Shown here: positions 1-10,046 of the stretch, piece after piece
Position numbering within the stretch: position 1 is the first letter of the stretch
Layout: every line of letters begins with the position of its first letter
Notes under the pieces: generated by a model
What the model saw: the letters and a program-made list of their open reading frames with translations, nothing else
What the model was told of the DNA's origin: nothing
The model's database searches: none
Origin: Candidatus Gastranaerophilales bacterium
GTDB taxonomy: Bacteria; Cyanobacteriota; Vampirovibrionia; Gastranaerophilales; Gastranaerophilaceae
Direction: 5' to 3'
DNA length: 64,000 bases
Assembly: GCA_944325875.1 (NCBI GenBank)
Contig: CALVBU010000009.1
Location: 1-64,000 of the forward strand
Translations under genes and position numbers: made by a program

Positions 1-96
1 CTATGTATCGGCATAATGGAATAAAAACTTTAATATTTTACTCTATTTGTGTTACATTTCTTAATAAAATCGAAATATTACCGTGTTGGCAACCAT

Positions 97-1335
97 TTAA
101 TGGAGGATATTTTGTAATTTATTGATTACAAAATCCAATGCGCCTTGTTGTGCTTCGAAAACTCTTTCGCAATCTTTGCATGCTTGATTATAGAATGTTT
201 CGTCATTAAGCAGTTTATGAGCTTCTGAGTAAAATTCTTCAGGGGTTTTAACTACTTTCCCTGCATTTGTTTTTCCTAGTATAGAATAGATATCTTTAAA
301 GTTATGAACATCAGGCCCTGAAATTACCGGCTTGTTGTAAACTGAAGCTTCAAGAGGGTTGTGACCTCCTGTATGGTTAAAGCTTCCGCCAATAAATGCA
401 AAGTTACATATTGAATACATTTTACCAAGTTCACCTAATGTATCAAGAATAATCAAATCTTTTTCTTTAAATGTGTCATTTTCAGAACGTTTGCCATAAT
501 TTATTCCAGATTTTTCGATAATCGGAATTATAGATGGCACTCGATTTGGATGACGTGGAGCCAGAAGTAGTTTTATATCAGAAAATTCTGATTTTAGCCT
601 TTTAAAGGTATTAATAACAATCTCGTCTTCACCTTTATGCGTACTTCCTGCAATAAATATTCTATGTCCATCTTGGCCAATTTGAATATCAGCTTCTTTT
701 TTCTTTACATCAAACTTAAGGTTGCCCATGACTTCTGTCTTTTCAGCAGGCATTCCTATTGAGATGTATTTTTCTTTATCTTCATTACTTTGAGCATAAA
801 CTGCTGTAAAGTTTTTGAAAACTTGTTTAAAAAATGGTGTTGCTATTTTATAAGACTTATATGTAGAATCTGAGATTCTTCCATTTATGATAGCTATAGG
901 GATATTGTTTTTGTGACATTTATATGCAAAATTAGGCCAAAGTTCTGTTTCTGCAATTAGCACAACTTCGGGTTTGATATTTGCTAAGAATTTATCTATG
1001 CAATGTGGAATATCAAATGGAAAATAAGTTATGAAATCAGCTATATTTTCATATTTTTTGTGTGCAATATCCTGTCCTGTTTTAGTTCCTGTGGTTACTA
1101 CAAGTTTGTATTCAGGAAAAGTTTCTTTAATCTTTTTTGCAAGATTTTCCAGCGCGATTACTTCACCGACTGAGACTCCGTGCATCATAATGATTTTTTC
1201 ATTTTTGAATGGAATGTTGATATTTCCAAATTTTTCATTCCAGCCAAATGATTTTTTGTGTAAAACTCTTTCTGCGTAATAAAAAGGCAGTGATGCGTAA
1301 AATATTATTGTGCTTAAAAATCCATATAATTCCAT
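97..1335 (-). CDS. waaA: 3-deoxy-D-manno-octulosonic acid (Kdo) transferase
   Basis: This enzyme transfers Kdo from CMP-Kdo to lipid A precursor at the inner membrane, the first step of LPS core assembly. The N-terminus has a hydrophobic anchor, followed by the family motifs HGVSVGE (the glutamate is the expected catalytic base), AETELWPN and INGRISD. The C-terminal half has the GT-B nucleotide-sugar region (FIGGSFNHTGGHNPLE). The protein is 412 residues, normal for the family. I chose the ATG at 1335 rather than the in-frame GTG at 1350, because a TATAAT box lies exactly six bases upstream of the ATG and overlaps the GTG region. With lpxK in this window it implies a Kdo-lipid A outer membrane. 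Confidence 0.93.
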   Translation of the reverse strand: MELYGFLSTIIFYASLPFYYAERVLHKKSFGWNEKFGNINIPFKNEKIIMMHGVSVGEVIALENLAKKIKETFPEYKLVVTTGTKTGQDIAHKKYENIADFITYFPFDIPHCIDKFLANIKPEVVLIAETELWPNFAYKCHKNNIPIAIINGRISDSTYKSYKIATPFFKQVFKNFTAVYAQSNEDKEKYISIGMPAEKTEVMGNLKFDVKKKEADIQIGQDGHRIFIAGSTHKGEDEIVINTFKRLKSEFSDIKLLLAPRHPNRVPSIIPIIEKSGINYGKRSENDTFKEKDLIILDTLGELGKMYSICNFAFIGGSFNHTGGHNPLEASVYNKPVISGPDVHNFKDIYSILGKTNAGKVVKTPEEFYSEAHKLLNDETFYNQACKDCERVFEAQQGALDFVINKLQNILH

Positions 1336-1341
1336 AAGTTT

Positions 1342-1369
1342 ATTATACACAAAATTAAAATCCGGTAAA
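1342..1369 (-). promoter_or_regulatory. waaA promoter, leaderless layout
   Basis: On the minus strand TTTACC, a 16-base spacer and TATAAT are followed after six bases by the waaA ATG. No Shine-Dalgarno sequence fits between. Transcription would start at or beside the A of ATG. Confidence 0.55.
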
Positions 1370-1395
1370 ATATTTATTATAATGTTATATAATTG

Positions 1396-1424
1396 TTGAC
1401 TTTAGTTATAAAAATTTATAAAAT
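1396..1424 (+). promoter_or_regulatory. folK promoter, leaderless layout
   Basis: TTGACT, a 17-base spacer and TAAAAT are followed after six bases by the folK ATG. This is a near-consensus housekeeping promoter with no room for a ribosome binding site. It is back to back with the waaA promoter. Confidence 0.65.
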
Positions 1425-1430
1425 GTGGGT

Positions 1431-1937
1431 ATGGCTATAGTATATTTAAGTTTAGGGTCTAATAAAGGTGATAGAATCGGCTATGTCCAACAAGCAACAA
1501 GCCTTTTGGGTGCTGCTGAAAATATTAGTCTTATAAGAACTTCTGCTTTTTACGAAACTGAACCTTGGGATATGAATTCCGATACTTGGTTTGTTAATGC
1601 TGTTGTTGAGATAAAAACTTCATTATCTCCTGAAGATTTGCTTGCGGAATGTAAGCGTATTGAACATCAGCTTGGCCGTACTCATTCTGATAAAAAAGAA
1701 TATGAAGATAGAACTATTGATATTGATATTCTTTTTTATAATAAAGATATTATCAATGAAGATAATCTTGTTATTCCGCATAAATTTCTTCATTTACGCG
1801 CATTTGTTCTTGTGCCTATGTTAGAGTTGAATCCTGATTTTATACATCCAGTTTTGCATAAGTCTATTTCTGACTTGCACAGTGATTTAGAAAATCCTGA
1901 AATGGTATTTTTATATGGGACGAGAGTTGAAATCTAA
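1431..1937 (+). CDS. folK: HPPK, folate biosynthesis pyrophosphokinase
   Basis: 6-hydroxymethyl-7,8-dihydropterin pyrophosphokinase transfers pyrophosphate from ATP to the pterin before it is joined to p-aminobenzoate. The family motifs are present: LSLGSNKGDR at the N-terminus, FYETEPW, FVNAVVEI, and the signature RTIDIDILFY with the metal-binding acidic residues. Length is about 168 residues, typical. The ATG at 1431 is preferred over a GTG two codons earlier because it sits seven bases from the -10 box. The 3' end overlaps the next gene by 23 bases, so the two are probably cotranscribed. No other folate gene is visible nearby. Confidence 0.93.
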   Translation: MAIVYLSLGSNKGDRIGYVQQATSLLGAAENISLIRTSAFYETEPWDMNSDTWFVNAVVEIKTSLSPEDLLAECKRIEHQLGRTHSDKKEYEDRTIDIDILFYNKDIINEDNLVIPHKFLHLRAFVLVPMLELNPDFIHPVLHKSISDLHSDLENPEMVFLYGTRVEI

Positions 1938-3081
1938 AGTCGCAATTATTGGTGGGGGCCCTGCTGGGTGCTTTTGTGCTTATTTTCTTCAAAAAGATTT
2001 TGATATTACGGTTTTTGAGGCTAAATCTCCGTTAACGACAATTTTGCCTACTGGTGGTGGTCGTTGTAATCTTGCTCATGCAGAATATGATTTTAGAGAA
2101 TTAGCTTCTAATTATCCTCGCGGAGAAAAATTCTTGTATTCTGTATTTTCAAAATTCGGGACTGCTGATACAATAGATTTTTTTGAAAGTATTGGGGTTG
2201 ATACTTATGTTCAGGATGATTTGAGGGTTTTTCCGCTTTCTAATAGTGCTGTTGATGTTAGAAATAAATTCTTAGAGAGTTTAGAGTGTGTCAAATTTAT
2301 AGAAAAAAGAGTTGACAAAATTGAAGAGGATATAAGCGGTTTTACCATTGTTTGTGGTAGTAATGCATATAAGTTTGATAAAGTTGTAGTTGCTGTAGGC
2401 GGACATTCAGGATTTTCTTTAGTAGAAAATCTTGGGCATAGTATAGTTTCTCCAAGACCTTCTCTTTGCGGGTTAAAAACAAAAGAAGATTTTGTAGAAC
2501 TAAGCGGGGTTAGTTTCAGTTCGGTTAAAGCAAAATGTAAGGGTAAGACTTATCTTGGAGATTTTATGTTTACACATACTGGAGTGACTGGACCTGTTAT
2601 TTATCAAATTTCCTCAATAATGGCAAGAGAAAAATTCCCTTATATTATAAATATAGATTTTCTTGCTGATGGTGATTTTGACTTACAGGGGTTGTTGAAC
2701 GAAAATCCCCATAAAGCTATTAAAAATCTCATCTCAGAATATTTACCAAAGTCTTTTGCTGAATTTATTTTAGGTAATTTGAGTATTAATCCTGATGAAA
2801 AATGCCATAGAATCAATGGCACTTTGAGAGATAAAATTATAGATAAGTTAAGAAACTTTGAACTTACTGCATTAGGTACTCGTCCTGATGGTGAAGTCGT
2901 TACTTCAGGAGGAGTTGACTTGAAAGAAGTAGATTCAAAGACTATGGAATCAAAACTTGTTTCAGGATTATTCTTTTGTGGGGAAGTTCTTGATATTGAC
3001 GGCTTTTGCGGAGGTTTTAATTTGCAAAACTGCTGGTCTACAGGATATGTTGCTGCACAAGGTATTATGCAGTCACAATAG
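1915..3081 (+). CDS. HI0933/YhiN-family FAD-dependent flavoprotein
   Basis: An NAD(P)/FAD-dependent oxidoreductase of the HI0933 (YhiN, BaiN-like) family. The N-terminus has the dinucleotide-binding glycine motif GGGPAG, then the family signature PTGGGRCN. The C-terminus has TSGGVDLKEVD and FFCGEVLDIDGFCGGFNLQ, which close the FAD site. Length (388) is close to the family's 390-410. Substrate and physiological role are not settled for most members; BaiN homologues reduce bile-acid intermediates, but nothing here shows that activity. It overlaps folK by 23 bases and converges on the gene ending at 3065, sharing 17 bases with its 3' end. Confidence 0.88.
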   Translation: MGRELKSKVAIIGGGPAGCFCAYFLQKDFDITVFEAKSPLTTILPTGGGRCNLAHAEYDFRELASNYPRGEKFLYSVFSKFGTADTIDFFESIGVDTYVQDDLRVFPLSNSAVDVRNKFLESLECVKFIEKRVDKIEEDISGFTIVCGSNAYKFDKVVVAVGGHSGFSLVENLGHSIVSPRPSLCGLKTKEDFVELSGVSFSSVKAKCKGKTYLGDFMFTHTGVTGPVIYQISSIMAREKFPYIINIDFLADGDFDLQGLLNENPHKAIKNLISEYLPKSFAEFILGNLSINPDEKCHRINGTLRDKIIDKLRNFELTALGTRPDGEVVTSGGVDLKEVDSKTMESKLVSGLFFCGEVLDIDGFCGGFNLQNCWSTGYVAAQGIMQSQ

Positions 3082-4390
3082 TATTATTAGTTTCGTTTTT
3101 AGCTTTTTCCATTACTTTGTATTCTTTATTGTTTGGAAGTATGTATCTCATTGCGATCATAAGTAACGGAACTCCAACGCCTAGAGCACCTATACATGTT
3201 CCTAAATTTTTGATTACGGAAATTCTTTTTGTTTTGATTACGTTTTTCAAATAGTCGTCAATATTATCTTTTGGCGCTTTTTCGTATAACATGCTGATAT
3301 CATCTTTTAATTTCTTAAATTCATTAATATCAAGGTATGCTCTGGTATCAATTTTAGCATTTGTAATATCATCGTTGCTTTTTATTGTTGCTATAAGTTT
3401 TGATTTTTTACCCATTTTTACTATAAAGTTGTCCGGGTTCTCGTGGATAAATTTATAAATATCAACGTCAGAAGCTGTTTCTGGACATTTTTGAGCGTAA
3501 TCGTCAAGGCTTTGTTTAATTGTACCGAGTCTGAAGGCTTCTTTTAAGTGCGGGCTTTCAATAATTCTTGAATCTAAAGCTATTGGGGTTGGTTGTTTTT
3601 TGTTTAGAGCTTTTTTCTCAAGATAATTTTTAATCATATCACCTGCAAAGTACATAAATGTCCAAGTACCAGCTTCTTTGATTGTATAGTTAATGAATTC
3701 CTGTTTGCTTTCTGAGTTTCTAAGTCTTTCTTCTGTGATAGCTCCATCTAAAAGCATCATATTTTTTGCAGGGTTAAACATAAATTCTTGCAAACCACCG
3801 TTAAATGAAATATCTTTGCCTTTTTGTAATTTTACGTCTTTGAAGGCTGGTTTTAATTCTAATTTTTGTGAAGTTTTATAGTTTGCATTATTGTGTTTGT
3901 TTTTTTCGGCTATTTCTTCTTTTGCTTTTTTTAATCTGTAGTTTTGTCTGTACTTAGTAAGTCCTGTATAGGCTGCAATTGCACCTCCTGTTGCAAAAGC
4001 GAACTTGCCTAATGCAAGATTTTTTACAAGTTTTTCATTTGCTACAGCCTTTTTAATGCTCTCTGCTATTTCTTTTGTCGGAGCTTTCTCTATAGACATT
4101 GCAAGAATTTCTTTATTCTTAAAGTTTCTTACATCGAAATTTGGGTCAATCCCTAAAAGTTTATATGCTGTGAAATTGGTTAGTCCTTTAAAAAATGGAA
4201 TTCCGCCTATCCAGATTGCTTCTGTGCCGAATTCGTCGATAAATCTGTCTTGACTCTCTACATTTTTCCCTGTTACGTATGATCCTGCTGTTAGTCCTAC
4301 ACTGTTTGCTACGTCCTTAACCATAAGGGGTAAAAGTGAGGAATTACTTCCTAATTTTGAATATAAATAGCTTGTTACTGATGATATCAT
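3065..4390 (-). CDS. unrecognised 441-residue protein with membrane-type segments
   Basis: I do not recognise a family. The protein begins in a moderately hydrophobic region (LLPLMVKDVANSVGLTAGSY), has an alanine/glycine-rich segment (FAFATGGAIAAYTG) around residue 150, a lysine-rich stretch, the motif ISFNGG near residue 200, and a convincing C-terminal transmembrane segment (IGALGVGVPLLMIAMRYIL). The ATG at 4390 has GGAG upstream and is preferred to an in-frame GTG 14 codons earlier. Upstream lie a 27-codon ORF and a structured leader RNA, suggesting regulated expression. The ISFNGG motif recurs in other unrecognised proteins of this window. A membrane-linked, lineage-specific protein is my best description. 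Confidence 0.7.
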   Translation of the reverse strand: MISSVTSYLYSKLGSNSSLLPLMVKDVANSVGLTAGSYVTGKNVESQDRFIDEFGTEAIWIGGIPFFKGLTNFTAYKLLGIDPNFDVRNFKNKEILAMSIEKAPTKEIAESIKKAVANEKLVKNLALGKFAFATGGAIAAYTGLTKYRQNYRLKKAKEEIAEKNKHNNANYKTSQKLELKPAFKDVKLQKGKDISFNGGLQEFMFNPAKNMMLLDGAITEERLRNSESKQEFINYTIKEAGTWTFMYFAGDMIKNYLEKKALNKKQPTPIALDSRIIESPHLKEAFRLGTIKQSLDDYAQKCPETASDVDIYKFIHENPDNFIVKMGKKSKLIATIKSNDDITNAKIDTRAYLDINEFKKLKDDISMLYEKAPKDNIDDYLKNVIKTKRISVIKNLGTCIGALGVGVPLLMIAMRYILPNNKEYKVMEKAKNETNNTIVTA

Positions 4391-4444
4391 TTTCTTGTTA
4401 TTTCTCCATAGGAATACTATTGGGTATTCCACTCAATCTGTGTA

Positions 4445-4528
4445 CTACAAGCCCCAGATTAAATTCATTAATTTGACGATTGGGGCATTCGCCTTTATGA
4501 TTGAGTTTCGTCGAAGTTTTTTTGTCAT
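4445..4528 (-). CDS. possible 27-residue basic small protein or leader peptide
   Basis: A short ORF starts at ATG 4528 with AAAGG a few bases upstream. It begins MTKKLRRNS and ends in a hydrophobic patch (IVKLMNLIWGL). It lies between the leader RNA and the 441-residue gene on the same strand. It could be a small amphipathic protein, a leader peptide or chance. Its C-terminal coding region lies inside an imperfect dyad (CCCCA...TGGGG). Confidence 0.3.
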   Translation of the reverse strand: MTKKLRRNSIIKANAPIVKLMNLIWGL

Positions 4529-4613
4529 TATCTAACCTTTCACTTATTTTCTAACGTCCCTGAATAATTAAATTGCTCTTTTAAAGTTTATTTTTTACCT
4601 TTGTTTACAAACT

Positions 4614-4644
4614 AAAAAAGAAGACCTTTTTTTCAAAAGGCCTT
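4614..4644 (-). terminator. intrinsic terminator of the leader RNA
   Basis: On the minus strand AAGGCCTTTT, a four-base loop and AAAAGGTCTT form a 10-bp stem with one G-U pair. A C and six T follow. The T tract is on the minus strand only, which fixes the direction. Confidence 0.6.
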
Positions 4645-4748
4645 GTTTATGATTTTTATTTCTCGACAAAAAGTAAGTGTCTTATTATTTAAACAAGCCC
4701 TTTTATTTTACTTACTATACGTCGGTATTGATAATTCTTAATCATTGC
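4614..4748 (-). ncRNA. candidate attenuator or riboswitch-like leader RNA
   Basis: A minus-strand transcript from the promoter at 4755-4783 would start near 4748. Three structures are visible. Hairpin A pairs 4711-4724 with 4664-4677 (CGAC and AGTAAG helices around a 4x4 internal loop). An antiterminator pairs 4690-4702 (AAGGGCTTGTTTA on the minus strand) with 4637-4649 (TAAACAAGGCCTT), 12 of 13 positions complementary. A terminator hairpin occupies 4614-4644. The antiterminator uses the 5' arm of the terminator, so the two exclude each other. The first antiterminator strand sits in the loop of hairpin A. I match it to no riboswitch family I know. Confidence 0.5.
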
Positions 4749-4754
4749 TCATCT

Positions 4755-4783
4755 ATTATAAACATAAATTGTTCTATTGTAAA
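4755..4783 (-). promoter_or_regulatory. promoter of the leader RNA
   Basis: TTTACA, a 17-base spacer and a perfect TATAAT on the minus strand. It points away from the GT-C gene and towards the structured leader and the 441-residue gene. Confidence 0.6.
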
Positions 4784-4897
4784 GTCTTTTTATTTTATTC
4801 CTTCTTTTGCTTTGATAAAATTTATGAATGTATTATTATTAGAAATGTTTAAATATAATATAGTAGAGAGTAATTAATTTGGGATTGGCGGTATAAA

Positions 4898-7015
4898 GTG
4901 ATTTTGTTTTTAATATCATTATTTTTAATTTTAGGTTTTGCTTTTTGTATTGCAAATGTTTTCGAGTCTAAAAGTTTGGTAAGAAATTATATATATTTTA
5001 TTGTTTCTGCTTTTGCAAATATTATATTTACTTTTGAGCTTCTTTCGATATTCTCAGCAATATCAGAGTTAGGAGTCATTGTTTTAAATTTAGTGTTATT
5101 TGTTTTAAGCTTTGCAATTTGGGCTAGAAGCGGTTTCCCGCTAGTTAAAGTTGATATAAAAGAGTTTTTTAATCGTTTTAAGAATGCTCTTTCGTTAGAT
5201 AATTCGTTATTATTTTTGTTTGCCGGTGTTATATTTGTTTTACTGGTTAGTTTAATTGTTATAATATATGCGCCATCAAATGGTGGAACTGATTTGTTTT
5301 ATCATGTTGTCAGAGCATTATTTTGGGTAGAGAATGGAAATTTAAACCACTTTAATGTTGCAGATGCCAGAATGGTATCATTCCCAATAAATTCTGAGAT
5401 ACTTTATAGTTGGATTTTCTTGTTATTAAAGAAAGATGTTTGTATACGTAGTTTTTCTTTTATATCCTATATGCTTTATATTCTTTCATTATATGGACTA
5501 ATGGGTGAATTTACAGCATCTTTGCGTAGAAAGTTGTGGGTTGTTTTCATCGTTTCTTCTTTTACCGCTGTTATTACATATATTTCTTCTAACGATACTA
5601 CTATAATGGTTTCGGCTCTGATTTTGGCTTCAATATACTTATTATTAGGGGCATTAAAATGTAAGAAAAATTCTATTCTTTTATATATGTCGTCATTAGC
5701 TTTAGCTATATCTGTTGGAGTTAAGACTTCTGCATTATTTGTACTTCCAGCTTTAGTGATTTGGTATTTCGTTCTTGGTTGGAGGTTTAGAGAAAAATCT
5801 TATAGAATAAATTTTTGGAAGTTTAGTTTGTATTTCATTATCAATGTTATTCTGTTTGCTTCATATAATTACGTTCTTAATTTTATAAATTACGGGAGCG
5901 TTATTTCAATACCGTCTTTAACTTATTCTCATCAAAATCAGCTTGGAATAAAAGGTTTTGTGTTTAATTTGCTTAATTATATTATGATGTCTGTTACTTA
6001 TCCTGAGTATGGAAAGTTTATTAATTTATCTTCATTTTTGGGGCATTTGCAGAGCGACTTGTTTAAACTTTTTGGAGGAGGGTTTCTTATTGGAAGATAT
6101 TCTAATTCTTATATAGGCACATACCTTATAGCTGATCGTGTAGGTTTAGGTATAGGCGGGGTAATAGTATTTCTACCTTGTTTATTTATTTCTTTTGCAA
6201 TGTTATTTAGAACATCATTCAATAAATCCTTTTTGCTTAACTCATTTCCTTTATTATTTTTTATCCCTTTTATATTGATGACTTATAGTCTTGCATATAT
6301 GTCTTTTAATATAAGATTTATAGTGACTTTTGCTTTGATTGCAATGCCTGTAATTTATTATTCTTATCATAAAAAATTAACAGTTTATAAATTTATTGTT
6401 GCATTTTTGGCATTTGCTTCTCTTTGGTATGTTCCTATAAATATTACTTATAATAATGTTTTTGATATTTTGAAGTATCTTCGCAGAGGGTATTCTATCA
6501 GTGAGATTCAGGAGTCTTTGTTATGCGGGAATTCGTATTTTGGTAAGAATATATATTGTCAGGTTAGAGATTATGCAGAAAAGCTCCCTAAAAATAACAA
6601 GTTTTTATATTTTTCACAGGAAGGTGAGGGGATATTTTATATAAAATCTTTGCAACTAAAAGGGTATGATGTAGATGTAGATTTGATGGAGAATGTTGAA
6701 AATATTAATTTCGATCAATATGATTATGTGATTACCCTAGAAAATAGGCAGGCTTCTTCTTTATTTGATAGAAGTATAAATTTTGATTCAGATGAATATC
6801 GCCGTCAAGGGCTTAATTGCTTTTATAACGAATATAATGGTAATTTGATATTAGATCCGAATAAGGGTAAACCTACTATTTTATATTGTTATTTGGATGG
6901 TAATTATTTTAATAGCAGGAATTTTAGTTTGTTTGATATTTTAAAATTCTCTGAGAATATTAATGGTATTACTAATCATTATAGTTTTTATGTGTATAAA
7001 AACAACAGAATTTAA
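4898..7015 (+). CDS. GT-C superfamily membrane glycosyltransferase, copy 1
   Basis: A 705-residue multipass membrane protein with about 11-13 hydrophobic segments and a soluble C-terminal domain of roughly 180 residues. After the third or fourth helix comes the GT-C-type catalytic loop: an Asp (TDLFYHVVRALFW) followed by NHFNVADAR and FPINSEILYSW. This pattern is known from lipid-linked sugar transferases that use polyprenyl-phosphate donors. The acceptor is unknown. The next gene is a paralogue. The start is a GTG at 4898 with only weak upstream purines (GGGATTGGCGG). A role in modifying surface glycan or protein is inferred from the fold alone. Confidence 0.7.
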   Translation: MILFLISLFLILGFAFCIANVFESKSLVRNYIYFIVSAFANIIFTFELLSIFSAISELGVIVLNLVLFVLSFAIWARSGFPLVKVDIKEFFNRFKNALSLDNSLLFLFAGVIFVLLVSLIVIIYAPSNGGTDLFYHVVRALFWVENGNLNHFNVADARMVSFPINSEILYSWIFLLLKKDVCIRSFSFISYMLYILSLYGLMGEFTASLRRKLWVVFIVSSFTAVITYISSNDTTIMVSALILASIYLLLGALKCKKNSILLYMSSLALAISVGVKTSALFVLPALVIWYFVLGWRFREKSYRINFWKFSLYFIINVILFASYNYVLNFINYGSVISIPSLTYSHQNQLGIKGFVFNLLNYIMMSVTYPEYGKFINLSSFLGHLQSDLFKLFGGGFLIGRYSNSYIGTYLIADRVGLGIGGVIVFLPCLFISFAMLFRTSFNKSFLLNSFPLLFFIPFILMTYSLAYMSFNIRFIVTFALIAMPVIYYSYHKKLTVYKFIVAFLAFASLWYVPINITYNNVFDILKYLRRGYSISEIQESLLCGNSYFGKNIYCQVRDYAEKLPKNNKFLYFSQEGEGIFYIKSLQLKGYDVDVDLMENVENINFDQYDYVITLENRQASSLFDRSINFDSDEYRRQGLNCFYNEYNGNLILDPNKGKPTILYCYLDGNYFNSRNFSLFDILKFSENINGITNHYSFYVYKNNRI

Positions 7016-7031
7016 TCATGGTTAACATACA

Positions 7032-7060
7032 TTGAACTCTTTGTTTGTATCTGATATATT
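7032..7060 (+). promoter_or_regulatory. promoter of the second GT-C gene
   Basis: TTGAAC, 17 bases, TATATT, in the 66-base gap between the two paralogues. It allows the second gene to be expressed independently of the first. Confidence 0.55.
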
Positions 7061-7081
7061 TTCTACTGAGGAGAGAGGGAT

Positions 7082-9268
7082 ATGCTGTTGTTTTTTCTAT
7101 CTTTTATTATCATATTATTAACATCTTTTTTTGCTGTTGCATGTTTTGAAAATAAAAAATTTAATATTGCATTGATTTATATTTTAGTCACAATGTTTGC
7201 GAATGTAGTTTTGACGTTTGAAATTCTGTCGCTATTTTCTGCTATATCTCAGGTTGGAGTGTTGAGTTTTAATTTAATTTTATTTATTCTCTCTCTTGCC
7301 TATTGGTTGAAGGCTGGAAAACCATTGTATGACTTTGAAATAAAAATGCCTTTAAAAGTTTTTTTTAATACCTTAATGAAGGATAAGTATCTTTTTGTAT
7401 TATTTTTTAGTTCATGCTTTATGTGTTTTGTTGCATTATGGTTAATAAGTTTTATGCCGGTAGTAAATCCTGATGCTGAAGGGTATCATGTCCTAAGAAG
7501 TTTGTTTTGGATTTCTAACGGTAATTTAAATCATTTTGATATTGCTGAATCCAGATGTCTTGATTTCCCTATTAATTCGGAGATTTTATATACTTGGATT
7601 CTTCTTTTTGTAAGAAAATGTGTGTGGTTTGGAATATTTTCATTTGCAGGATTCGTTTTGTCGATATCTGCTTTATATGGAATATTGACTAATATAGGGC
7701 TCTCTTTGCGTAAAAAGTTGTGGGTAATTCTTTTAACCTCATCTTTAGCTTCTGTAATTGTCCAAATTTCTGGAACTGAAACAGATATAATTATTTCAGG
7801 GCTTGTACTTGCTAGTATTTACCTATACTGTAATGCTCTAAAATCCTGTAAGCGAGTTCCAATATATGTATCTTCTCTTGCTTATGCTCTTGCTATAGGG
7901 ACAAAAACTCCTGCAATTATGTTGATTCCCGGGGTCGGAATTTGGATGGTTGCAATGAGCATTTATTACAAAAAGAAAGATTTTTATAAGCCTTTTTTAT
8001 CGTTTTTACTTTTTGCTTTAATAAATTTTATTTTATTTGGAGCTTATAATTATCTGCTTAATTTCTTAGATTATGGCAATATTGCTGGGTCTCCTTCTTT
8101 GCTTGCTGTTCATCAAAATCATAACGGATTGAAGTCTGTGCCGGCAGATTTTATTAAGTATATTTTTATGTTCTTTGATTTTACCGGATTTACTTGGAAT
8201 AAAACATTAGGGGTTCATATAATCCATTTTAGAGACTCAATATTGTCTTCTCTTGGTTTATTTGTTTCTCAGGATGGGCTTAATTCTTCAGATTCTTCTT
8301 TATCAAACAGTTCTCTTTTGGAACCGTTAATGGGCATGGGCATCTTGGGCTTTTTAGTTTATTTGCCTTGTTTATTTTATTCGCTGGTAAAACCTATTAT
8401 CACTAGAAAGAAAAAAGATTTATTAATATTTCCGTTTGGAATAATTTTACTGGTGACAATTTTTATGATGGCGTATCAGATTCAGTACATGACTTATAGT
8501 ATAAGATTTTTGACATCTTTTTGTGTGGTTTGTGCGCCTGTTTTAGCTTATTCATACTCTAAAAAGAATAATCTGTTTAAATTTATTATTGTATTTTTTG
8601 CCGTGTTTAACCTTTTGTTTGTATCTACACATCTTTGGGCAAGAGCTGCAATAAGAATATTCTCTTATTTTAGAGAGGGTGCGACAGTATCTCAAGTTCG
8701 AGAAATTGCGACATGTTCAGGTTTCTTTAAAGGAATAAATAAGAACCCTTCGTTAATCTCTAATTATCCAATATTTAATATAGCTTGTGGCATAAGAAAT
8801 AAGTTACGGTTAATTGATAAAAGAAATAAAATTCTGTACTTTTCTAATGCTTCAGATACCCTTTTAATAATCAAAATGATGGAATTTCAAGGGTATAACA
8901 TAGATTTTAAAACCGCTGAAAATATTGAAAATATTGATTTCAGTAAGTATAACTTGATCGTGACGATTGATGATATTCAAGTTTCTACAAATGTTCAGAA
9001 ATACAATAGTCGTAACTCAGGTTTTGATTACATTACAGATGGTATAGTCTGCTCTTATATTGATTTGAATGATATGCCAATTTCACATGCTTCTAATTCA
9101 TATCCGTATAAATCTATATGTAGATTTACGAATTATTTTTTCAAAAAGCATGGATATAAATTCTATAATGAATTTGCGGTTGATTATAGAGAAAATGGAC
9201 AGTTATCAGTAATTAAATTTAAGTTCTATGAAAATACAAATAATCCGGTAATTACCCCATTATATTAA
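7082..9268 (+). CDS. GT-C superfamily membrane glycosyltransferase, copy 2
   Basis: A 728-residue paralogue of the preceding gene with the same arrangement: hydrophobic start, periplasmic catalytic loop with Asp (PDAEGYHVLRSLFW), NHFDIAESR, FPINSEILYTW, then further membrane helices (YALAIGTKTPA) and a soluble tail. It starts at ATG 7082 behind a strong GAGGAGAGAGG. Side by side the two proteins are clearly alike but far from identical, so the duplication is old and the two may differ in acceptor or donor. The 3' end overlaps the convergent gene by 17 bases. Confidence 0.7.
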   Translation: MLLFFLSFIIILLTSFFAVACFENKKFNIALIYILVTMFANVVLTFEILSLFSAISQVGVLSFNLILFILSLAYWLKAGKPLYDFEIKMPLKVFFNTLMKDKYLFVLFFSSCFMCFVALWLISFMPVVNPDAEGYHVLRSLFWISNGNLNHFDIAESRCLDFPINSEILYTWILLFVRKCVWFGIFSFAGFVLSISALYGILTNIGLSLRKKLWVILLTSSLASVIVQISGTETDIIISGLVLASIYLYCNALKSCKRVPIYVSSLAYALAIGTKTPAIMLIPGVGIWMVAMSIYYKKKDFYKPFLSFLLFALINFILFGAYNYLLNFLDYGNIAGSPSLLAVHQNHNGLKSVPADFIKYIFMFFDFTGFTWNKTLGVHIIHFRDSILSSLGLFVSQDGLNSSDSSLSNSSLLEPLMGMGILGFLVYLPCLFYSLVKPIITRKKKDLLIFPFGIILLVTIFMMAYQIQYMTYSIRFLTSFCVVCAPVLAYSYSKKNNLFKFIIVFFAVFNLLFVSTHLWARAAIRIFSYFREGATVSQVREIATCSGFFKGINKNPSLISNYPIFNIACGIRNKLRLIDKRNKILYFSNASDTLLIIKMMEFQGYNIDFKTAENIENIDFSKYNLIVTIDDIQVSTNVQKYNSRNSGFDYITDGIVCSYIDLNDMPISHASNSYPYKSICRFTNYFFKKHGYKFYNEFAVDYRENGQLSVIKFKFYENTNNPVITPLY

Positions 9269-9650
9269 GTTTACGTCCGCTAGTTGAGAGCATGCTCTGA
9301 GCTTGAGCCTTAATTTCTCTCGCTTTTGCTGCAACTTTATAGTCTTGAGGAGAAGGATCTCCAGGTGCCATAGCAGAGCGGATAACGATATTTGCTTCAT
9401 CAATGGTTTTTTGCGGATTGTTAGGGTTTAATACAGGCATTTTTATGGCAACATGCCCTCCAACAGGAATGCCGTCGGAATTCTTTTCAATAACTATTGA
9501 ACCAGCCAAAGCTCCACCTGCAGATTTATGAGCTTGTTCATGCGCATAAATCTCATTGTAATTTCTTTGTATTAATTCTTGCTTTTGCTGATTATTATTT
9601 TGTTGAAGTAAGTTTGAATAAAGACTACCAAAGTTAACATTCCTAATCAT
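9252..9650 (-). CDS. small SprA-related putative zinc metalloprotein
   Basis: A 132-residue protein with the zincin-type motif HEQAHKSAGG (H-E-x-x-H) at about residues 38-47. This sequence context is typical of the SprA-related family (PF12118). Downstream VGGHVAIKMPV and a region of alternating charged helix (AKAREIKAQAQSML) also fit that family. It is shorter than the usual 200-400-residue members and lacks their long N-terminal part. It starts MIRNVNFGSLY, with the short x-F-G motif seen in other proteins of this window. There is no signal peptide. AGGTTAGG precedes the ATG. Protease activity is inferred from the motif only. Confidence 0.65.
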   Translation of the reverse strand: MIRNVNFGSLYSNLLQQNNNQQKQELIQRNYNEIYAHEQAHKSAGGALAGSIVIEKNSDGIPVGGHVAIKMPVLNPNNPQKTIDEANIVIRSAMAPGDPSPQDYKVAAKAREIKAQAQSMLSTSGRKLNIMG

Positions 9651-9734
9651 ACGCCTAACCTCATACTATTTCAGAAATATTATACTACATAGATAGTAAT
9701 TGTTCAACTATTTATTACGAATTATAAAAGCATT

Positions 9735-9760
9735 AAAAAAGACGCCTTAGTGGCGTCTTA
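9735..9760 (-). terminator. terminator after tRNA-Glu
   Basis: The stem AAGACGCC / GGCGTCTT with a short ACTAA loop is followed by T residues on the minus strand, immediately downstream of the tRNA. Confidence 0.8.
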
Positions 9761-9768
9761 TTCTAAAA

Positions 9769-9844
9769 TGGTACTCCCAGGGGAATTCGAATCCCCGTCT
9801 ACACCGTGAAAGGGTGTTGTCCTAGGCCTCTAGACGATGGGAGC
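9769..9844 (-). tRNA. tRNA-Glu (anticodon TTC)
   Basis: A full cloverleaf: acceptor GCTCCCA / TGGGAGT (first pair G-U), D arm with CTAGAGGCCTAGG, anticodon loop CTTTCAC giving TTC, and a T arm with GATTCGAATT. The sequence ends in an encoded CCA. It closely resembles the E. coli tRNA-Glu layout. Confidence 0.95.
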
Positions 9845-9912
9845 CTGATATTTTTGAGTTTAAAGTTTTTGATTTATTCTCTAAACTCTGGGGTTTCCCT
9901 TCCACGTTTTCT

Positions 9913-9940
9913 ATAGTACCAAAACAAAATTTTTTGTCAA
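9913..9940 (-). promoter_or_regulatory. tRNA-Glu promoter
   Basis: Perfect TTGACA, 16 bases, TACTAT on the minus strand, about 60 bases before the mature tRNA. The rest of the 9651-10108 gap holds only this, the tRNA, its terminator and the clpC promoter. Confidence 0.55.
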
Positions 9941-10046
9941 CAACTTTTTTTTATATTTTTTATATATAAAAATTTTAGAGTCTAAAAAGTTGTTTTTATA
10001 ATGTATTATAAAATTTCTAAACTGTTTGTAATACGCCTTTGCCCTC

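Follow-up and report, generated by a model that had tools for sequence, protein, structure and literature searches.

In a 64,000-nucleotide stretch of a Candidatus Gastranaerophilales genome (contig CALVBU010000009.1; hereafter the window), a 135-nucleotide leader RNA read from the minus strand most probably serves as a ribosome-mediated transcription attenuator that senses the supply of functional, charged tRNA-Arg(ICG), an arginine transfer RNA (tRNA). Downstream lie a 27-codon open reading frame (ORF) and the gene of a 441-residue membrane-type protein; a previous sequence-only reading of the locus had named these two as the controlled genes, and we accept that assignment. The leader contains a translatable ORF of its own, whose regulatory arginine codons are conserved and keep a constant position with respect to the hairpins. 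The upstream hairpin overlaps these codons, and the terminator and antiterminator are mutually exclusive and kept so by compensatory change. The leader ORF, the identity of its codons, the co-varying alternative pairings, the purge of the same codons from the controlled gene and a parallel histidine system are all well supported by comparison of homologous sequences. The elements of the locus are as follows.

4755-4783, minus strand: sigma-70-type promoter TTTACA-17-TATAAT, 11/12 matches
4689-4745, minus strand: leader peptide 1, 18 codons, MIKNYQYRRIVSKIKGLV* (asterisk, stop codon), near-leaderless start; ORF with in-frame CGACG in 111/118 loci
4711-4725, minus strand: 5' arm of hairpin A, where the regulatory CGA CGT codons lie; z -11.4 for co-variation with the 3' arm
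4664-4678, minus strand: 3' arm of hairpin A, from folding and co-variation
4690-4704, minus strand: antiterminator 5' strand AAAAGGGCTTGTTTA, made up of the final codons of peptide 1; z -12.8 for co-variation with 4649-4635
4635-4649, minus strand: antiterminator 3' strand, overlapping the terminator 5' arm, from co-variation
4614-4644, minus strand: intrinsic terminator with T-run, from the scan and 107/111 homologous leaders
4445-4528, minus strand: leader peptide 2, 27 codons, MTKKLRRNSIIKANAPIVKLMNLIWGL*; pattern in 177/383 family genomes, 0 control hits
4431-4506, minus strand: helix between codons near the arginine pair of peptide 2 (4506-4499) and the region after its stop (4438-4431), z -13.0
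4411-4430, minus strand: hairpin of variable sequence just upstream of the ribosome-binding site of the main ORF, from folding of the spacer
3065-4390, minus strand: controlled ORF, 441-residue helical membrane protein; no CGA, CGU or CGC among 11 Arg codons

Leader peptides and their regulatory codons

The sequence-only reading had described a promoter, hairpin A, a terminator and an antiterminator, and all of them are present, as established by conservation and not by scans. Within positions 1-10000, a scan gave 61 promoter-like sites, of which the promoter at 4783-4755 scores best; this number is no enrichment over the 50.6 (standard deviation 7.0) expected by chance in shuffled sequence. 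Terminator-like sites in the same scan, which recovered the terminator at 4644-4621 on the minus strand, were likewise at chance level (5 against 4.5), so the case for both elements rests on conservation. A TTTACA-like -35 box is found in 72/107 homologous leaders, and in 64/107 a -10 box (at least 5/6 matches) is located 4-12 nucleotides upstream of the leader ORF start. An intrinsic terminator, by our own criterion, follows in 107 of the 111 leaders that bear an ORF with in-frame CGACG. The 395-bp region from promoter to main ORF is found in 11/12 same-genus relatives (E 1e-77 or better) and in 11/23 other genomes of the family (E 4e-10 or better), with 77-91% identity across 12 genomes (the 11 same-genus relatives and G013) and weaker conservation in ten other genera of the family. 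The sole same-genus genome that lacks it, G010, also lacks an ortholog of the controlled protein; its best match (1e-18) is a paralog of the histidine type described below. The named homologs come from gut Melainabacteria of Candidatus Gastranaerophilales, among them Ca. Scatousia and Ca. Gastranaerophilus.

The leader is itself coding. The ATG of peptide 1 (position 4745; stop at 4689) stands nine nucleotides past the TATAAT box, so that the predicted mRNA is almost leaderless; a Shine-Dalgarno-like sequence occurs in 26/107 homologous leaders, notably in genus g57. Homologs of peptide 1 include MIRFLQNRRSKYNLKGLF*, MTKLIRRNVRKFLKGLL* and MINRQNRRSNNNGGFTI*. The 118 loci in which the in-frame CGACG ORF was sought all carry peptide 2 (121 less three duplicates), and the seven without it comprise three with a degenerate region (L023, L068, L070), two with another upstream gene (L051, L053), L073, with MRIRTYQKRCFRTN* in the position of peptide 1 and no Arg-Arg pair, and L076, in which the pair lies within a longer ORF. 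An alternative peptide of the form MRIR.YQ(K/R)R(C/Q)F(Y/R)TN.., arginine-rich and using AGA and CGC/CGA codons, occupies the same place in several of L073, L325-L333, L346, L425-L426 and L441-L442.

When loci were selected by the Arg-Arg dipeptide alone, with no codon requirement, peptide 1 (n=107) used CGA-CGT in 53, CGA-CGA in 36, CGA-CGC in 17 and AGA-CGA in 1, and peptide 2 (n=108) used CGA-CGA in 99, CGA-CGT in 4, CGA-AGA in 3, and CGA-CGC and CGC-CGA in 1 each. The first codon is thus CGA in 106/107 and 107/108 ORFs, respectively, and the second codon of the 106 CGA-CGN pairs in peptide 1 is CGU, CGA or CGC but never CGG. Against this stands a window background (32 ORFs of at least 250 residues) in which CGA makes up 29 and AGA 355 of 555 Arg codons, and in which no Arg-Arg pair starts with CGA. 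Fourteen of 118 peptide 2 sequences lack CGA followed by CGA, CGU or CGC, and 11 of these 14 retain an in-frame CGA. The genome encodes tRNA-Arg with the anticodons ACG, TCT, CCT and CCG. The anticodon ACG is read as ICG, with inosine at the wobble position, and decodes CGA, CGU and CGC. With this anticodon set, the conserved leader codons are those decoded by one tRNA.

Peptide 2 is conserved as a protein and carries both CGA-CGA and the terminal sequence MNLxWGL*. Residues N, L, W, G and L at -6, -5, -3, -2 and -1 before the stop are invariant in 117 loci, picked by a pattern that covers part of the NLxWGL stretch, and their synonymous codons vary, except for the single Trp codon. When loci were picked by the downstream protein instead, a peptide ending in WGL* was found in 72/80 named loci and in 25/30 distant orthologs of the family; an Arg-Arg peptide was listed upstream for 74/80 named loci, although a few of these calls are wrong (L184 is in fact peptide 2, and L214 is doubtful). 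The helix between the codons near its arginine pair and the region after its stop was scored over 68 loci, with control values of 0.3 and -0.5. The spacer between peptide 2 and the main ORF folds more stably than shuffled sequence (-9.7 versus -4.0 kcal/mol, mean z -2.9; 62 loci with spacers of 35-80 nucleotides), and the hairpin before the ribosome-binding site is missing where the spacer is short. Peptide 2 is probably a second, translational checkpoint. SpeFL/DUF2618 (PF10940) was not matched: a search of 10 leader peptides at E up to 10 returned 0 Pfam families.

Beyond the family, a strict peptide 2 pattern had zero matches in 22 genomes of the order. A range limited to the family was dropped, as the pattern was too strict and a protein search found WGL* peptides beyond it: within the order, a WGL*-ending peptide precedes the ORF in 9/20 loci outside the family. 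In three loci (L051, L053 and L416), a WGL peptide without Arg-Arg stands directly upstream of the ORF; those of L051 and L053 come after an apparent yidD gene, recognised by eye.

Alternative pairings in the leader RNA

The minimum free energy structure of the 135-nucleotide leader (-26.6 kcal/mol, z -3.0 against dinucleotide shuffles) contains both hairpin A and the terminator. The sequence-only reading had named a lack of compensatory changes in the antiterminator pair as a refuting result; this test came out in favour of the proposal. The upstream strand AAGGGCTTGTTTA pairs with TAAACAAGGCCTT at 12/13 positions, with one G-G mismatch, and the TAAACAAGGCCTT strand overlaps the terminator 5' arm. 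We compared duplex energies of strands taken from the same leader with those of strands from different leaders, using 60 leaders of less than 85% identity and 5000 permutations. The antiterminator duplex had -14.5 in self against -10.1 in cross pairs (z -12.8) and the hairpin A duplex -12.1 against -8.1 (z -11.4); neither was matched in 5000 permutations, although the z values are inflated by the relatedness of the leaders. Five unrelated control strand pairs gave z of -1.3 to +1.0, and one pair of overlapping segments (s2:s3) gave -4.7. In an alignment of 23 leaders, antiterminator covariation was 0.227 against 0.131 in shuffled alignments (0/500). The claim of mutually exclusive terminator and antiterminator is upheld, and both alternative pairings co-vary. 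Among individual genera, g57 has its antiterminator pair altered to GGAGGCTTTA with AAAGCCTTC, g7 has an altered 3' strand that leaves about six antiterminator pairs (GAAAGG:CCTTTC), and hairpin A covariation is weak inside g57 alone (39/500 shuffles).

With a ribosome modelled at CGA-CGN, at least five expected antiterminator pairs are predicted in 60/60 leaders before the terminator 3' arm exists, compared to 2/60 with the ribosome at the stop codon and 32/60 without a ribosome. Because the leader ORF holds conserved adjacent CGA-CGU codons, the layout points to a ribosome-mediated attenuator rather than a riboswitch; of the two options that the sequence-only reading had left side by side, the attenuator stands and the riboswitch most likely does not. 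A pseudoknot, also entertained there, is most likely not formed either: that reading had missed the leader ORF, in which CGA-CGU lies in the 5' arm of hairpin A and the last codons are the antiterminator strand. No Rfam family reached its gathering score on the leader, in line with the earlier statement that it matches no known class, and relaxed thresholds gave nothing credible; Phe_leader scored 26.9 against a gathering score of 55, and no riboswitch aptamer or T-box model matched at threshold.

Short insertions, some more G+C-rich, recur at a few places in the leaders and are possibly small mobile repeats. They lie just past the terminator in L089, L090, L093 and L095 and between peptide 2 and the ORF in L003; L054 has one as well.

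Codon purge in the controlled gene and its paralogs

The codons CGA, CGU and CGC (together CGH) account for 12 of 1292 Arg codons in 113 orthologous ORFs, 105 of which have none. Among 61 codons, only CGC, CGT and CGA are strongly depleted (log2 relative to window ORFs -5.9, -5.8 and -4.1); the next, TGT, stands at -1.7. In 80 ORFs picked by protein homology, a set that overlaps the 113, CGH makes up 13/1004 Arg codons and is missing from 71, compared to 914/2650 in 231 neighbouring ORFs. Per 1000 codons, these 80 ORFs fall below their neighbours in CGG (0.51 versus 1.51) and AGG (1.58 versus 3.99) and exceed them in AGA (25.8 versus 18.7). AGA is also undiminished in the Arg-type ORFs as a whole (1168/49969 codons, 23.4 versus 22.8 per 1000 in window ORFs). 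Since CGH is depleted while AGA is kept, what is avoided is not arginine itself but the codons of one tRNA. Outside the family, eight of the nine ORFs preceded by WGL* have 0 CGH among 109 Arg codons, and the ninth, which is partial, has 0 of 6.

Paralogs of the controlled protein lie downstream of His-rich leader peptides, of which MKNYLQKHHHTHHINP* is one example and MKNEFTLNLHLHHHINLKRL* (L032) an example from this genome. Such a leader precedes 24/24 paralogs of one set and 18/20 of a second (42/44 overall), the exceptions in the second set being L390, which is of the Arg type, and L377, which has no credible leader. A mechanical rule of three His in nine residues passes 43/44, L377 by chance; the same rule passes 80/1000 random stretches and 0/30 Arg-type upstream regions. 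The purge is reciprocal: 21 His-type ORFs have 3 His in 9006 codons and use CGH ordinarily, in 82/270 Arg codons, whereas His accounts for 544 of 49969 codons in the Arg-type ORFs. Across nine genomes that were compared and contain both types, CGH is 2/112 in the Arg type versus 41/112 in the His type, and His numbers 46 versus 2.

In the His-type leaders, the end of the peptide co-varies with a downstream strand (z -8.4), and the region of that strand co-varies with the ribosome-binding site (z -4.5; control 0.4). The two pairings suggest translational attenuators that use an anti-Shine-Dalgarno strand. The Rfam model His_leader scored 24.7 on a His-type paralog leader, below its gathering score of 49, and domain searches with the His paralogs gave weak matches and no family over cut-off. 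The His paralogs are located at L032:1498-2799 (G000:C1, about 152065-153366) and at L391-L410. A third, leaderless type of paralog is not purged of CGH in this genome (10/18; G000:C8:18083, L033, 537 codons), and other loci vary from 0 of 18 to 8 of 22.

The 441-residue protein is all helical. Most of ten family members checked have hydrophobic segments near residues 120-150 and 385-420; in the window's own protein, only the second passes the threshold used. It matched no Pfam family and no PADLOC model of a known anti-phage defence protein, with best E values of 0.14 in NCBIfam and 0.25 in PHROGs, and tblastn against phage records found no match. An AlphaFold2 model from 62 sequences reached a pLDDT (predicted local distance difference test) of 87.5; another model reached 72. 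Foldseek searches with the two models returned nothing below E 0.36 in the PDB or 0.088 among viral models, and the best VIA-align scores, Z 6.3 (root-mean-square deviation 6.9, 135 aligned) and 5.6 (4.4, 98 aligned), are in the range of common helical arrangements. The missing fold match does not indicate a new fold.

Two neighbouring, similar-looking large membrane proteins of 705 and 728 residues are encoded at 4898-7015 and 7082-9268 on the plus strand, divergent from the leader promoter; the first begins about 115 bp away.

Mechanism, rival explanations and known systems

We infer the following course of stalling, of ON and OFF states and of peptide 2 action. A ribosome would initiate peptide 1 near the mRNA 5' end and reach CGA-CGU, both decoded by the single tRNA-Arg with anticodon ACG. 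With ample tRNA, it would continue to the stop codon and mask the GGGCTTGTTTA strand, the terminator would form and the gene would be OFF. A ribosome stalled at CGA-CGU would instead mask the 5' arm of hairpin A and leave the GGGCTTGTTTA strand free to grab the terminator 5' arm as RNA polymerase makes it, turning the gene ON. Upstream of the main ORF, peptide 2 would repeat the test with CGA-CGA, its MNLxWGL* end adding a translational checkpoint. The membrane protein would stay makeable in shortage, since its gene is without CGA, CGU and CGC. More generally, because the purged codons are those of the leader tRNA, each protein could be made without the tRNA, tRNA-Arg(ICG) or tRNA-His, whose loss would release it.

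Several observations weigh against this mechanism. The C-terminal codons of peptide 1 change frame between genomes. Peptide 1 is lost in L023, L068, L070, L051, L053 and genus g24, yet the purge persists: g24, without an Arg-Arg leader, still has 2 CGH of 51, and L051 and L053, also without the pair, have 0 CGH of 17. Conversely, the purge is relaxed in genus g45 (18/73 Arg codons are CGH) despite CGA-CGA in three of its four loci (L415, L418, L421, L423), all of which have lost the WGL end of peptide 2. The purge tracks the WGL peptide more closely than it tracks peptide 1. In the folding models, the full-length equilibrium probability of the terminator under stall is still 0.69 on average and 0.84 for the leader in the window, which means that antitermination would have to be a kinetic outcome, decided during transcription. 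The window's own leader also favours the antiterminator before the terminator is complete when free of ribosomes, and a role for hairpin A is therefore not evident there.

As a trigger of the attenuator, plain arginine limitation, which is compatible with the mechanism, has somewhat less than an even chance: some isoacceptors would lose their charging earlier than others, and the leader would use charging-sensitive codons and the ORF resistant ones. The theory of selective charging is established and has been tested on Arg and other isoacceptors (PMC1183508), Salmonella speF senses arginine via two adjacent Arg codons (PMC6386406), and the paralog leaders use His codons as amino-acid operons do. 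This trigger sits poorly with the Arg-type ORFs, in which AGA is not reduced, whereas His is nearly all purged from the His type. AGA is moreover the most used Arg codon and has one tRNA gene found, so that at equal tRNA levels it would presumably be the first to lose charging; and no recognised arginine gene is under the leader's control. Alternatively, and we put this forward tentatively, the system may be dedicated to tRNA surveillance, in which each of the paralogous membrane effectors is kept off by a leader decoding one tRNA and lacks the codons of that tRNA, the trigger being tRNA destruction or under-modification (for example, by an anticodon nuclease or tRNA-cleaving toxin) and not amino-acid shortage. 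Such damage to the tRNA would in that case switch on expression, and the effector gene could still be translated.

A general translation-stress sensor, in which CGA-CGA is merely slow and any ribosome-slowing drug or stress raises expression, is unlikely: slowness is intrinsic to CGA pairs in Salmonella (PMC4046918, PMC11805395), and many antibiotics elicit a response from upstream ORFs (uORFs) such as toiL (PMC12121999), but a sensor of this kind predicts neither the exact removal of CGA, CGU and CGC nor His leaders with His-free paralogs. Action of the mini-ORFs in trans, as functional small proteins or by sequestering a rare tRNA, would suit the selection of the MNLxWGL* end at the amino-acid level; we regard it as improbable, given that peptide 1 is conserved mainly at its Arg-Arg pair and in RNA pairing, that both ORFs lie in cis upstream of the same gene and that the terminator architecture needs cis action. 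Sequestration of a rare tRNA is what the CreT mini-ORFs do. It is very improbable that CGACG is an RNA or DNA motif, a hairpin or protein site whose reading frame is incidental. The motif is part of hairpin A and recurs in both small ORFs, but among the 106 CGA-CGN pairs of peptide 1 the next base is T, A or C and never G, an in-frame CGA survives loss of the following CG in several exceptional sequences of peptide 2 (L044, L049, L054, L106, L110), and the ORF purge matches codons. Hardly any weight falls on a riboswitch for a metabolite or on a leader bound by protein. The length of the RNA and its alternative pairing would suit either, and sequence alone excludes no ligand, but the stretch leading to the antiterminator codes for peptide and is kept as an ORF in the great majority of loci, arm sequences vary freely while pairing is kept, and no Rfam riboswitch was found at threshold.

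If the ribosome-mediated attenuator is correct, sensor and output share one codon logic: the gene released when a tRNA fails is written without its codons. The reciprocal Arg-ICG and His pair makes this idea testable by recoding, gives a starting point for work on a protein family of gut Melainabacteria that is wholly uncharacterised, and points to a rule for finding similar hidden systems, namely a leader codon set equal to the codons missing downstream. In the literature covered, which mostly leaves aside subscription journals, we found no leader confined to the codons of one isoacceptor that controls a gene purged of exactly those codons, and no reciprocal pair of purged paralogs.

Biosynthetic enzymes are low in their cognate amino acid. 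The controlled genes described here are similarly depleted of the cognate residue, and the leader resembles selective-charging codon choice (PMC1183508) in being enriched in starvation-sensitive codons; what sets the present system apart from both is a nearly complete purge that is specific to the isoacceptor and reciprocal in the two paralogs. Arg-Arg pairs that include CGA bring about strong de-attenuation in Salmonella hisL (PMC4046918; see also PMC11805395). The engineered CGA-CGA is the same codon pair, there in a laboratory construct and here natural and conserved across the family and beyond. The Salmonella speF leader orf34 (DUF2618) likewise places two Arg codons in succession close to the N-terminus of a conserved peptide, and stalling there alters downstream RNA structure (PMC6386406), as we propose here. 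In speF, Arg codons work whether rare or frequent, and Rho, RNase G and translation take part in the control (PMC6386406); here, an intrinsic terminator and CGA specificity take their place. Attenuator screens have reported His leaders upstream of hisS paralogs in bacilli (PMC2965389), a different system. Codons, targets and phylum all set the present leader apart from the DUF1127 uORF of S. meliloti (PMC12218461). The mycobacterial cysteine leader, which is leaderless, differs from it in the same ways. Both resemble the present leader as leaderless or short uORFs that control transcription read-through. The proposed mechanism is the one known from trp/his-type attenuators, which share the short leader ORF with regulatory codons, the overlapping hairpin and the mutually exclusive antiterminator and terminator. 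In contrast to these, the leader described here has a near-leaderless ORF with two adjacent Arg codons confined to the tRNA-Arg(ICG) set, and it is followed by a second leader peptide and, where those have biosynthesis genes, by a membrane protein without a recognised domain or fold.
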